DNA of 63,751 nt from Eubacterium sp. AM49-13BH (lineage in GTDB: Bacteria; Bacillota; Clostridia; Lachnospirales; Lachnospiraceae). A program made the position numbers and the translations under genes. The notes beneath the pieces are model-generated. The model ran no database searches and was not told the origin of the DNA. It saw only the letters and a list, made by a program, of their open reading frames with translations. The stretch covers positions 1-63,751 of the forward strand of contig NZ_QSEK01000017.1 of NCBI RefSeq assembly GCF_003464165.1. The letters are read 5' to 3'. This document shows, one piece after another, positions 60,462 through 63,751 of this stretch. The stretch's first letter is position 1, and each line of letters starts with the position of its first letter.

Positions 60462-60467
60462 TTTTAA

Positions 60468-60696
60468 CGGTTGGGGAGTCGAAGAAGTGCTTCACACCAT
60501 CACAACTAAGGTAAGCGGTCCTAGTTGCTGTAAATGCCGCCATATACAGAGTTTATAACGGTGCTGGAAATCAAAACGCGCTTCGCTTGAGCGAGATTTC
60601 CAGCACCGAACTTTTGTATATGGCGGTATTAACACCCACACGGACAGCTTACAATTTAGTTGTGATGGTGTGAAGCACTTCTTCGACATGACCACC
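60468..60696. repeat. 229-bp long-hairpin element (MITE-like) behind the topoisomerase operon
   Basis: A perfect 32-bp inverted repeat (60478-60509 with 60656-60687) encloses a second inner inverted repeat (CCGCCATATACA and CGGTGCTGGAAATC on the left, their complements on the right), with a small CGCT/AGCG hairpin at the tip. Outside the perfect arms the ends still match partly (GGT.G). TTTTAA lies on both sides (60462-60467 and 60697-60702) like a target duplication. No protein-coding gene is present. It may be a mobile MITE-like element, or work as a transcription barrier. No other copy occurs in this window. Confidence 0.7.
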
Positions 60697-60745
60697 TTTT
60701 AATAGATAAAATTTCATAAAGAAAATTTGTTCGTGCAACAAAGTA

Positions 60746-60774
60746 TTGACATTGACATACAAAGAAAGTATCAT
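60746..60774 (+). promoter_or_regulatory. Promoter of the restriction-modification operon
   Basis: TTGACA (60746-60751), 17 bp, TATCAT (60769-60774). A second TTGACA (60753-60758) overlaps the spacer. The transcript would begin about 25 nt upstream of the first gene. Confidence 0.7.
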
Positions 60775-60803
60775 AAATTTATGAAGAAGGAGGAACAAAT
60801 GAG

Positions 60804-60986
60804 ATGAGAAAATCAATTTCAATCAGTATAAGAGTGAGCGAAGAAGAATTAGATAAGTTTAAGGAAGCAGCAAGATTAGAAGCGTATTCATCATATAGTG
60901 AGTTTATAAGAAGAACAGCATTAATAGAAGCTGCCAGAATAATTAAAGAAAACAATGAAGGAGAGGATACCCATGAACATAATTAG
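60804..60986 (+). CDS. Ribbon-helix-helix DNA-binding protein
   Basis: The 60-residue protein starts with a beta strand and two helices typical of the MetJ/Arc fold: [47 protein letters not shown], close to the CopG/Arc-type and antitoxin-like (DUF1778/DUF6290) proteins. AGGAGG lies upstream. Its end overlaps the start of the fused methyltransferase-endonuclease gene by 14 bp, so translation is probably coupled. It could control expression of the restriction-modification gene (as control proteins do) or be an antitoxin-like part of it; neither is proven. Confidence 0.75.
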
Positions 60987-62991
60987 TTTGTTTAGTGGAT
61001 GTGGAGGATTAGATTTGGGTTTTGAAAGAGCAGGGTTTAATATTCCTGTTGCGAATGAATTTGACAAAACAATATGGTTGACATTTAAAGCTAATCATCC
61101 TAATACTCATCTGATTGAAGGTGATATAAGACAGGTAACAAAAGAAGATATTGAACAGTTTATAGATGGAGAAGTTGATGGAATTATCGGTGGTCCACCT
61201 TGTCAGTCATGGTCTGAGGCAGGTTCATTAAAAGGGATTAAAGATGCCAGAGGACAGTTGTTTTTTGATTATATTAGAATATTAAAGGAATTCCAACCTA
61301 AATTCTTTTTGGCAGAAAATGTAAGCGGAATGTTGGCAAACAGACATTCAGAAGCGGTGCAGAATATTCTAAATCTTTTTGATGATGCAGGATATGATGT
61401 ATCATTCACACTCGTAAATGCAAAGGATTACGGAGTTGCAGAAGAAAGAAAGAGAGTGTTTTATATAGGTTTCAGGAAGGATTTGCATATTGATTTTGGA
61501 TTCCCTAAAGGTTCAACAAAGGATGATGATAAGAAAAAAACTCTTCGTGATATTATATGGGATTTGCAGGATACGGCTGTTCCGTCAGGAGAGAAAAATC
61601 ACCACAATCCAGAGGCAATCAATAACAATGAATACTATACTGGAGCATATTCACCAATATTTATGAGTCGTAATAGAGTAAAAGGATGGGATGAACAGGC
61701 ATTTACAGTTCAGGCATCAGGAAGACAATGTCAGCTTCATCCACAAGCACCTAAAATGGTTAAAGTGGCACAGAATGATTGCAGATTTGTAGAAGGAAAA
61801 GAACATCTTTATCGTCGAATGACAATTAGAGAGGTTGCCAGAGTACAGGGATTTCCAGATGATTTTAAATTTATATATGAGGATACTAATACAGCATATA
61901 AAATGATTGGCAATGCTGTTCCGGTTAACCTTGCATATGAAATAGCTGTTGCAATAAAGAAATACTTAGAAGGTAATGGTGCAGAGGTTGTTGTAGATAA
62001 TGAGGTTATAGATGCAAAGGAGGTTAATGAGAAAAAAGTGAGTACAAAGAGTAATGATCAGGGTAGAGCATATGAGTATGCTTGGATAAAAACACTTTAT
62101 AAGGCGTTATGTGATATGCGAAAAACTAGAATAGTTGATAATTCTAGTTTACATGCAAATGAAAAGGCATGGGCTCTTATGGATGAGGAAATGCAGCAGA
62201 CATTTATGATATCAGCAGAATCAGCCATTGATACAGTGCTTGAAATGGAACCTAAAATGTCAGAGGGCTGTAATGATGAATTGACATTAGAGTTTCAGAA
62301 GGACGGAGCTGGCGTAAAGGGGGATGTAAGAGACATTGTTATTAGAAGAAATGATATTGAGTGGGAAATAGGATTAAGTATCAAACATAATCACGATGCC
62401 GTAAAACATAGCAGATTAAGTCATAAACTTGATTTTGGTAAAGAATGGTTTGATATGCCTTGTAGTGATGCATATTGGAATGGGGTTCAACCAATATTTG
62501 ATATGCTAAAGAATGAGAAGGATAATGGTTCAAGATGGTCTGAAATCAATGATAAAGACGAAGTAGTATATGTACCTTTACTACAGGCATTTATGGATGA
62601 GGTTAATAGAGCATATAAAGAAGATAAGAATATGCCACGTAAGATGATAGAATATCTTATTGGAATGGAGGATTACTATAAGGTTGTCAGCCGTGATAGT
62701 AAGCGTCTTACAATGATTCATACTTTTAATATGCATGATACTTTAAATAAACCAAGTGAAAATAAGGTATCGGCAATTACTGTGCCAGTAGTAGAGTTAC
62801 CGACAAGACTTGTAGCACTTGAGTTTAAGCCTGGAAGCACTAATACAGTAGAAATGTTTTTGGATAATGGATGGCAATTAAGTTTCAGAATCCATAATGC
62901 AAGTACAAAGGTTGAACCAAGTTTAAAATTTGACGTGCAGTTTATTGGTATGCCTACATCAGTGCTAAATATTGAATGTAAATGGAAATAA
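60973..62991 (+). CDS. Fused C5-cytosine DNA methyltransferase and HaeIII-like restriction endonuclease
   Basis: The start at 60973 (GGAGAGG 6 nt upstream) gives 672 residues. Residues 1-330 are a C5 methyltransferase: motif [17 protein letters not shown], motif [15 protein letters not shown] with catalytic Cys77, motif [10 protein letters not shown] with Glu115, motif VIII-like region, and motif [17 protein letters not shown]. After a linker (about 335-358), residues 360-672 start [19 protein letters not shown] and contain GDVRDIVI (Asp451, Asp454) and [20 protein letters not shown] (Glu465, Lys471), resembling HaeIII-type endonucleases, whose target is GGCC. One polypeptide would thus both methylate and cut. 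The catalytic assignment in the second half is by resemblance only. Confidence 0.85.
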
Positions 62992-63004
62992 GGCGGTACA
63001 AATA

Positions 63005-63475
63005 TTGAGAAAAATGCTATTAAGTTTCAGACCGGATGTTTATGAAAAAATAAAATCTGGTGTGAAGATATTTGAACATAGAAGAAATTTTCCAGATGAA
63101 CCTATAATGGCATATATGTATGTTAGCTCACCGGTGAAAGCAATCACCGGTGTTGTGTACTTAGGTAAAAGGCATTGTCTATCTGACTGGCTGGAAGACT
63201 ATAAAGAAGATAGCAATGCTACTACTCGAATAAAAGAATATATAGAAAAGTATCATTATAGGTATGTTATGGAAATAGAGAGATTTCAGGAAACATCACA
63301 GATATCACTAGAAGACTTAAGAAAAAATGTTCTGGGTTTTGTAGCACCGCAGATGTATATATATTTGGATGGTACAGAATTGTTGAAGTATATAGAGAGT
63401 AACTTGAAAATGGCAGATTTGCAGGTAGTACATTCATTTGAAAGAATAGAGGCTTGTCAGGTTTGTGTGCATTAA
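63005..63475 (+). CDS. ASCH-domain (PUA-like) protein in the restriction-modification operon
   Basis: A TTG at 63005, 8 nt after AGGCGG (62991-62996), is the best start; the next in-frame ATG is at 63014. The domain reads LLSFRPDVYEKIKSGVKIFEHRRNFPDEPIMAYMYVSSPVKAITGVVYLGK, the ASCH pattern with a G-x-K-x-(F/Y)E-x-R motif. ASCH proteins bind RNA or modified nucleotides, and some are nucleases or amidohydrolases. It starts 13 bp after the fused enzyme, so it belongs to the same operon. A role linked to methylated bases or to the defence response is an inference. Total length about 156 residues. Confidence 0.75.
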   Translation: MRKMLLSFRPDVYEKIKSGVKIFEHRRNFPDEPIMAYMYVSSPVKAITGVVYLGKRHCLSDWLEDYKEDSNATTRIKEYIEKYHYRYVMEIERFQETSQISLEDLRKNVLGFVAPQMYIYLDGTELLKYIESNLKMADLQVVHSFERIEACQVCVH

Positions 63476-63551: not shown

Positions 63552-63751
63552 ATGGAATACGAATTTGAAGAATGGGCATTTAAAAGTTTGGATGAGATAA
63601 CAGATAAAATTAATGACGGAACTCTTTTATGCAAAGAGAATCAAAATCTAATAAAAAAATTTTTATTTGAAGACGGAACTCTTTTATGCAAAGAGAATCA
63701 AAATCTAATAAAAAAATTTTTATTTGAAGAGCAAGCTAAAATGCATGCTGA
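63552..63751 (+). CDS. Unidentified gene with tandem duplication, truncated by window end
   Basis: The frame starts MEYEFEEWAFKSLDEITDKIN, with AAGG 10 nt upstream, and stays open to the end. A 19-residue unit (DGTLLCKENQNLIKKFLFE) occurs twice in a row. The pattern N-x-x-LI-x-KFL...EEQAK could be the N-terminal core-binding part of a tyrosine recombinase, but with 66 residues this is a guess. It follows the restriction-modification operon on the same strand. Confidence 0.5.
   Translation, partial: MEYEFEEWAFKSLDEITDKINDGTLLCKENQNLIKKFLFEDGTLLCKENQNLIKKFLFEEQAKMHA
63615..63728 (+). repeat. Perfect 57-bp tandem duplication
   Basis: Two identical 57-bp copies (63615-63671 and 63672-63728) keep the reading frame. 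Each holds an AAAAAAATTTTTAT stretch. The perfect identity points to a recent event or to length variation. Confidence 0.95.

Follow-up and report, generated by a model that had tools for sequence, protein, structure and literature searches.

A C5-cytosine methyltransferase and a HaeIII-family restriction endonuclease are encoded in a single frame of Eubacterium sp. AM49-13BH, and such fusions are natural and recurrent in the HaeIII-type enzyme family, not a one-off. DNA-marking enzymes and the matching DNA-cutting enzymes are usually encoded by two genes. In the DNA analyzed here (contig NZ_QSEK01000017.1, 63,751 nucleotides, the whole of which is called the window), the fused gene is preceded by a gene for a small RHH protein and followed by one for an ASCH-fold protein. 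The best explanation, to which we give a rough probability of 0.6, is a Type II restriction-modification (R-M) system in which the fused frame would also hold an inner start for a free endonuclease, the RHH protein would act as a repressor and the ASCH protein would be an accessory. The features of the locus are as follows.

60726..60742, + strand: inverted repeat TTTGTT-N5-AACAAA, candidate operator
60746..60774, + strand: promoter-like sequence, -35 TTGACA, 17 nt, -10 TATCAT (11/12 consensus)
60804..60986, + strand: RHH gene, 60 aa, PF01402 above cut-off; L023-L026, L036 and L171 have homologues in the corresponding position
60973..62991 including stop (60973-62988 without), + strand: fused C5-methyltransferase/HaeIII-family endonuclease ORF, 672 aa
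60973..61962, + strand: methyltransferase domain, residues 1-330, predicted catalytic Cys77 (PF00145; M.HaeIII 1dct/3ubt)
62017..62023, + strand: AAGGAGG, SD-like, inside the fused ORF
62038..62040, + strand: in-frame GTG where unfused relatives start their separate endonuclease gene
62062..62955, + strand: HaeIII-family endonuclease domain, residues 364-661 (PF09556)
63005..63475, + strand: ASCH-fold gene, 156 aa, TTG start (an ATG at 63014 would give 153 aa)

The fused protein and its genomic setting

The 672 codons of the fused ORF run without interruption, and an alternative in-frame start, ATG at 60955, would extend the product to 678 aa. The RHH gene overlaps the start of the fused gene by 14 nt and the ASCH gene lies downstream, which bears out the operon-like layout that the earlier note, made from the sequence alone, had described. 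Residues 1-330 match the Pfam family DNA_methylase (PF00145) with an E value of 2.8e-101, and the C5 methylase motifs PCQ, ENV and the last GN.V are all present. Residues 364-661 match RE_HaeIII (PF09556) over 298 of 298 model positions (E 1.9e-138, 461 bits against a cut-off of 25). These full-length matches in one frame confirm the single chain of C5 methyltransferase and HaeIII-like endonuclease seen in the earlier note, which had proposed this very Pfam comparison for the C-terminal half. Furthermore, PADLOC made two separate Type II calls, the methylase for residues 1-338 and the endonuclease for residues 358-671, and the closest solved relative of the methylase half is M.HaeIII (1dct, E 1.6e-133). 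Among solved proteins, a sequence search with the endonuclease half gave no convincing relative, only two chance-level matches (E 0.47 and 0.55). No endonuclease fold is claimed from the AlphaFold model (alignment A2; mean pLDDT 65.2, with the endonuclease core partly below 50), and the 50 Foldseek matches listed for this model were methylases only, with no endonuclease.

The methylase residues C77, Q78, E115, N116 and V117 are each conserved in at least 97% of 92 rows. In the endonuclease half, D451, R453, D454, S469 and K471 are conserved in at least 99% of 94 rows and all are intact in the window protein; the earlier note had let its reading depend on the conservation of key residues in homologues. 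Some of these near-invariant positions may be catalytic.

The recognition and methylation target is probably GGCC, as judged from the likeness to HaeIII (M.HaeIII; 61-62% identity in the structure match), and on this similarity the target proposed earlier stands as a sound deduction. GGCC occurs 22 times in the window against 73 expected. This depletion was rejected as evidence for the R-M system, since it is genus-wide: GGCC is below expectation in 11 of 12 stretches (L159-L170) from 10 same-genus genomes, in which no match to the endonuclease half was found. GATC is depleted in all 12 of these stretches and in the window as well (58 against 189 expected in the window).

Chance or an assembly error is an unlikely source of the arrangement, because clusters of the fused protein were found on 5 contigs (97% identical in the endonuclease part) and on 9 (90% identical), and the RHH-fusion-ASCH trio is present again in the single-contig genome G1099 (locus L171). 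In L171, a recombinase-like gene, identified by eye, lies upstream of the trio. In G001 and G012, a convergent gene, presumably argH, comes after the gyrA end of the window and the hairpin repeat behind it (96% and 93% identical); G012 has a second, partial copy of the hairpin between the gyrA-side repeat and the convergent gene, and G009 has gyrA and the convergent gene without the full hairpin. As the trio is absent from the gyrA spot in all three, it represents extra DNA in the lineage of the window. Matches to the endonuclease half were found in three of 61 genomes of relatives (G052, G053 and G061), all outside the genus. The long imperfect hairpin at 60463-60702, between gyrA and the R-M system, belongs to a repeat that is dispersed in the genus: G001 has 12 matches, G012 has 15 and G009 has 4, counts in which some sites appear on both strands. 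On the other side of the trio, the next ORF (63552 onward, running off the window) contains a 57-bp tandem duplication, 96% identical, at 63610-63723.

Recurrence of the fusion and the old endonuclease start

Six divergent endonucleases were used to search genome contigs, and 282 relatives were confirmed. Among the best 80, which were kept, 21 are fused, a share that is favored by the ranking according to likeness to the window; none of 10 viral loci is fused. A tree was made of 96 rows (the window, 80 genome loci, 10 viral loci and 5 other loci), of which 22 are fused, 64 have split genes in the order M-R, 7 have the order R-M and 3 have no nearby methylase. By a quick method, and with long branches present, the fused label requires eight changes on this tree, at least five of them forced by well-supported branches, indicating that fusion or splitting occurred several times. 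In a protein search, 118 of the 120 homologues listed, out of 456, carry both Pfam domains; this search takes only proteins of 0.55-1.75 times the query length and thus passes over free endonucleases. The earlier note had called a fusion with a C5 methyltransferase unusual. That holds among the described Type IIC enzymes, those named in PMC4081073 carrying gamma- or alpha-class methylases, but in the present family fusion is a regular state, as the 21 of the best 80 of 282 loci indicate. No natural fusion of a C5 methylase and a HaeIII-type endonuclease, nor an inner start in one, was found in the literature searched, and REBASE may well list such proteins.

In most relatives, the endonuclease gene follows the methylase gene head to tail, the two overlapping slightly or being separated by a short gap. 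In a close relative, L026 on an isolate's contig, the two genes are split through one missing linker base, and in L103 the endonuclease frame is shortened. The order R-then-M is confined to seven loci (L080, L082, L083, L089, L095, L100 and L102), all from Bacteroidota.

In the split relatives, ATG or GTG is the usual start of the endonuclease, with AGT or AGC as the next codon, near or overlapping the methylase stop, and this start is retained in most of the fused genes. At the equivalent in-frame codon, the 22 fused rows have ATG (11), GTG (9), CTG (one, L031) or ATA (one, L039). Valine at this position is thus GTG in 9 of 9 cases, against 145 of 937 (15.5%) for the other valines of these genes. 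The first start codon of the separate endonuclease frame of L026 is the GTG equivalent to that at 62038-62040 in the window. Upstream of the codon, the pairing energy of 15 bases with the 16S tail averages -7.0 kcal/mol in the fused rows (18 of 22 at -5 or below), compared with -1.9 over 491 in-frame ATG/GTG codons elsewhere (Mann-Whitney 6e-12; rows are related, so that p-values here are overstated, while the direction is clear) and with -7.9 at 51 starts of split relatives (51 of 64 rows, the other 13 not fitting the start pattern). Weaker values were obtained for L046 (-1.5), L042 (-3.0), L036 (-4.8) and L040 (-4.9), and the CTG of L031 and the ATA of L039 are not customary start codons. 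In the window, AAGGAGG and GTG are separated by 14 nt, longer than usual; in other fused lineages (L032, L034, L048 and L076), GGAGG lies nearer to the start. Moreover, Lys-Glu of the DAKE motif in the linker is encoded by AAGGAG in 10 of 12 rows and in 11 of 99 other Lys-Glu pairs (Fisher test).

Because the old start and an SD-like sequence are retained, and are common to most of the fused relatives, a free endonuclease is probably also translated from the GTG at 62038-62040, an expectation that we hold somewhat more strongly than its opposite. A start retained in recent fusions may be a relic, and precedents from the bench are of interest. For the natural endonuclease fusion NsoJS138I, a C-REase, only the full-length protein was detected according to the available part of that report (PMC3850674), and coupling at overlaps of the PvuII type was tested and, as far as the available text of that study goes, not found (PMC2997769). 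The premise of a single polypeptide, on which the earlier note had based its question of host protection, therefore stands in so far as one frame encodes both enzymes, but the retained start may give a second product.

The RHH and ASCH genes

The RHH protein scores 23.2 bits with PF01402 (RHH_1; cut-off 20.5), and together with the 14-nt overlap this corroborates the small RHH protein described before. The first base of the -35 box, 60746, is also where the stretch covered by the earlier note begins. Over the window, the promoter scan gave 16 sites against 14.1 in shuffles, about equal numbers. The inverted repeat ends three bases before the -35 box and is the sole exact match in the window, 0.02 being expected in shuffles. 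It is found at the same place in L023-L026, with exact arms and varying spacer bases, and in L171 with one mismatch. In these loci the whole promoter block is conserved and not the repeat in isolation; as the surrounding bases are conserved too, the repeat is taken as a candidate operator and not as a footprint. It is absent from L036, though the RHH protein there is 63% identical. A second palindrome, at 60772-60783, was rejected as operator, being not conserved.

Ten split relatives (L001, L074, L075, L090, L092, L097, L098, L099, L101 and L103) have a small Cro/CI-like helix-turn-helix protein, identified by eye, in the position of the RHH protein, which therefore looks like a swap-in controller. 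By tblastn, RHH homologues were found in five of 95 loci (L023-L026 and L036) and ASCH homologues in three (L023-L025), all in one clade of 34 rows, with L171 of G1099 in addition. Joint travel of the three genes, a question raised in the earlier note, is thus not the rule; the trio is a local assembly confined to close relatives and not a fixed unit.

The third gene of the trio gave no match to the Pfam family ASCH (PF04266). Nevertheless, its identification as a true ASCH-fold protein, made in the earlier note, is upheld by profile and model. A profile of 18 relatives matches ZmASCH (E 3e-9), and the AlphaFold model (pLDDT 86.5) has ZmASCH as its first Foldseek match (E 5e-9), followed by the ASCH domain of TRIP4 and, more weakly, by YTH and EVE domains. 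Among eight relatives scanned, that of L147 exceeds the Pfam ASCH cut-off (24.4 against 21.2), that of L144 scores 19.6, and the other six have no ASCH match. The profile PDC-M11B of PADLOC, a name (PDC-M11) not found in the literature searched, gives 48 bits with the window protein and 160 with L182, an ASCH protein of the control group, so that it fits another ASCH subfamily better. In ZmASCH, a ribonuclease and the closest solved fold, Tyr47 and Lys53 are described as important for nucleic-acid binding (PMC5615036). Counted by hand along the alignment, they correspond to Y39 and K45 of the window protein, and Ser128 to M117; two of these three ribonuclease residues are thus shared, while Ser is replaced by Met. 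In the alignment of 18 rows (A4), Y39 is invariant and K45 is not. In L024 the fused frame is intact although the ASCH copy next to it is broken, and no ASCH homologue is present in L026 and L036, indicating that ASCH is dispensable.

Sequence searches for ASCH homologues matched 12 of 397, 17 of 391, 6 of 392 and 1 of 398 genomes (overlapping sets, the last two at a stricter limit) as well as three plasmids; none was confirmed in viral contigs. Ten full-length close members (L142-L147, L149 and L171-L173) served as the neighborhood set. In seven of them (L142, L144, L147, L149, L171, L172 and L173), ASCH has a C5 methylase gene no more than about 2.5 kb away, accompanied by a LlaMI-family endonuclease in L149 and by Bsp6I-family endonucleases in L147 and L172. 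N4/N6 methylases are found near ASCH in L145 and L146, and no methylase in L143, where the locus stops at the contig end. The same tblastn search detected no C5 methylase near other ASCH proteins in 16 control loci, one of which has an N6 methylase 4.5 kb away, and a Pfam scan of the two nearest ORFs in each control locus gave one N6_Mtase/HsdM, one Methylase_S and no C5 family among the 25 of 51 families listed. The difference of 7/10 and 0/16 (Fisher, 1.8e-4) persists when L171, a trio like that of the window, is removed (6/9, 4.7e-4), in a test whose seeds came partly from the test loci and favor them.

An incomplete homologue in G277 (E 7e-22), with OLD-like and UvrD-like genes nearby by eye and no adjoining methylase gene, was left out of the ten; its inclusion gives 7/11. 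Weak matches in G034, G096, G155, G164, G257, G319, G001, G769 and G814 were also left out, like two weaker plasmid matches from Sinorhizobium and Rhizobium, the former with no methylase among seven annotated features. The ORF found where the match in L181 was recorded gives no clean ASCH reading.

Several neighboring ORFs were noted. Directly behind the ASCH gene of L142, a 1006-aa protein combines an Eco57I/TaqI-type N6 methylase with the C5 methylase (L142:4789-7809). ASCH is adjoined in L144 (8130-9047) and in L143 (4359-5240) by ORFs that resemble each other, have some 300 aa and match no Pfam family, that of L144 also adjoining the C5 methylase; they are possible candidates for a new endonuclease. 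In a proteobacterial MAG, an ASCH-like 100-aa ORF, seen by eye, precedes a split HaeIII-type system (L053:3544-3846).

The link of this ASCH subfamily to Type II systems, mostly of the C5 kind, is supported by these neighborhoods. Alternatively, the ASCH gene may be unrelated cargo that lies downstream by chance: a homologue is present in just three of 95 loci, one of them broken, and R-M genes cluster in islands, where any island gene can be a neighbor. Set against this, homologues that were found by their own sequence lie near a C5 methylase of HaeIII, LlaMI or Bsp6I systems in seven of ten cases and other ASCH proteins in none of 16, which makes the cargo reading doubtful, though not negligible.

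Proposed mechanism and known systems

In the favored explanation, the locus would be a Type II R-M system, probably specific for GGCC, whose methyltransferase and endonuclease genes were turned into one frame. In the ancestor, as in most relatives, the M and R genes would have stood head to tail with only a short gap or overlap between them. The long M-R product would methylate as soon as it is made, probably as a monomer, and would cut once the endonuclease halves meet on unmethylated DNA. Protection timed by assembly, with the monomer methylating first, has been proposed for Type IIC chains in a review (PMC12707154). The inner ribosome site and start probably give free endonuclease, in an amount governed separately from that of the long product. 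The RHH protein, whose gene opens the operon, probably acts on the inverted repeat next to the -35 box and so represses the promoter that the genes share. The ASCH protein would be an accessory of Type II (mostly C5) systems that probably binds a modified or flipped cytosine, or RNA, tuning restriction. A joint version is put forward tentatively. In it, one gene would encode two nested in-frame proteins, the fusion, which both protects and restricts, and an endonuclease made at an inner start that is under selection; the balance between the two, together with the RHH repressor, would allow safe entry, and the ASCH protein, of a subfamily dedicated to Type II systems, would read the 5-methylcytosine state and tune cutting.

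The 672-aa chain could also be the only product, as in a plain Type IIC enzyme, with the inner start and SD as relics of recent fusion. The scatter of fusions on the tree and the weaker inner SD of L046, L042, L036 and L040 agree with this, and the engineered RM.Eco29kI is reported to work as one chain in vivo (PMC3039593). However, the codon at the old start alternates between ATG and GTG, no other valine codon occurring there, the inner SD comes close in strength to that of split genes, and the AAGGAG bias of the DAKE motif (10/12 against 11/99) is of the same direction; the single-product reading is thus possible but not probable. Much less likely is a decayed locus with an inactive endonuclease half, whose protein would act only as a methylase. 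Relatives with broken parts do exist (ASCH in L024, the endonuclease frame in L103), but the intact near-invariant positions and the full-length Pfam match without a stop make such decay improbable for the window, and we give it little weight beside the Type II fusion with an inner start.

The system shares with Type IIP R-M systems of the HaeIII/NgoPII type both enzyme halves, the order M then R of most relatives and the presumed GGCC target; there, M and R are separate, whereas here they form one frame with additional RHH and ASCH genes. With Type IIC enzymes (MmeI, BpuSI and BtgZI), it shares methylase and endonuclease domains, whose activities are predicted here, in one chain, to which the inner start may add free endonuclease. 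As described in PMC4081073, those enzymes mostly have an N-terminal nuclease and a gamma-class methylase (alpha-class in BtgZI) and cut away from the site, and the usual form combines an N-terminal PD-D/EXK nuclease, a gamma-class N6 methylase and a shared recognition part. The window protein departs from this form, with a C5 methylase first and a palindrome-type endonuclease behind it. RM.Eco29kI likewise joins a C5 methylase to a Type IIP endonuclease and functions in vivo, but it is laboratory-made, has R before M and a GIY-YIG nuclease, restricts roughly 100-fold less than its unfused counterpart, and has no inner start in the available part of its description (PMC3039593). NsoJS138I is, like the window gene, a natural fusion of neighboring R-M genes, maybe arisen repeatedly, but there the controller is fused and not the methylase, and the available account mentions the full-length protein only (PMC3850674). 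Earlier work placed ASCH and EVE proteins, small and PUA-like, near Type I R-M systems and PIN-GNAT operons (PMC7641849); the window ASCH is similar in standing beside R-M genes but belongs to a separate subfamily beside Type II systems.

Natural C5 R-M frames with a retained inner start allow the old question of how methylation stays ahead of cutting to be addressed with one gene. The fusion has been gained or lost repeatedly, once by a single linker base, which provides matched natural pairs such as the window and L026. If the tie of the ASCH family to Type II systems is true, it would be a new restriction accessory and a possible reader of 5-methylcytosine, and if the nested two-protein gene is true, a single-frame R-M system could enter a new cell safely.
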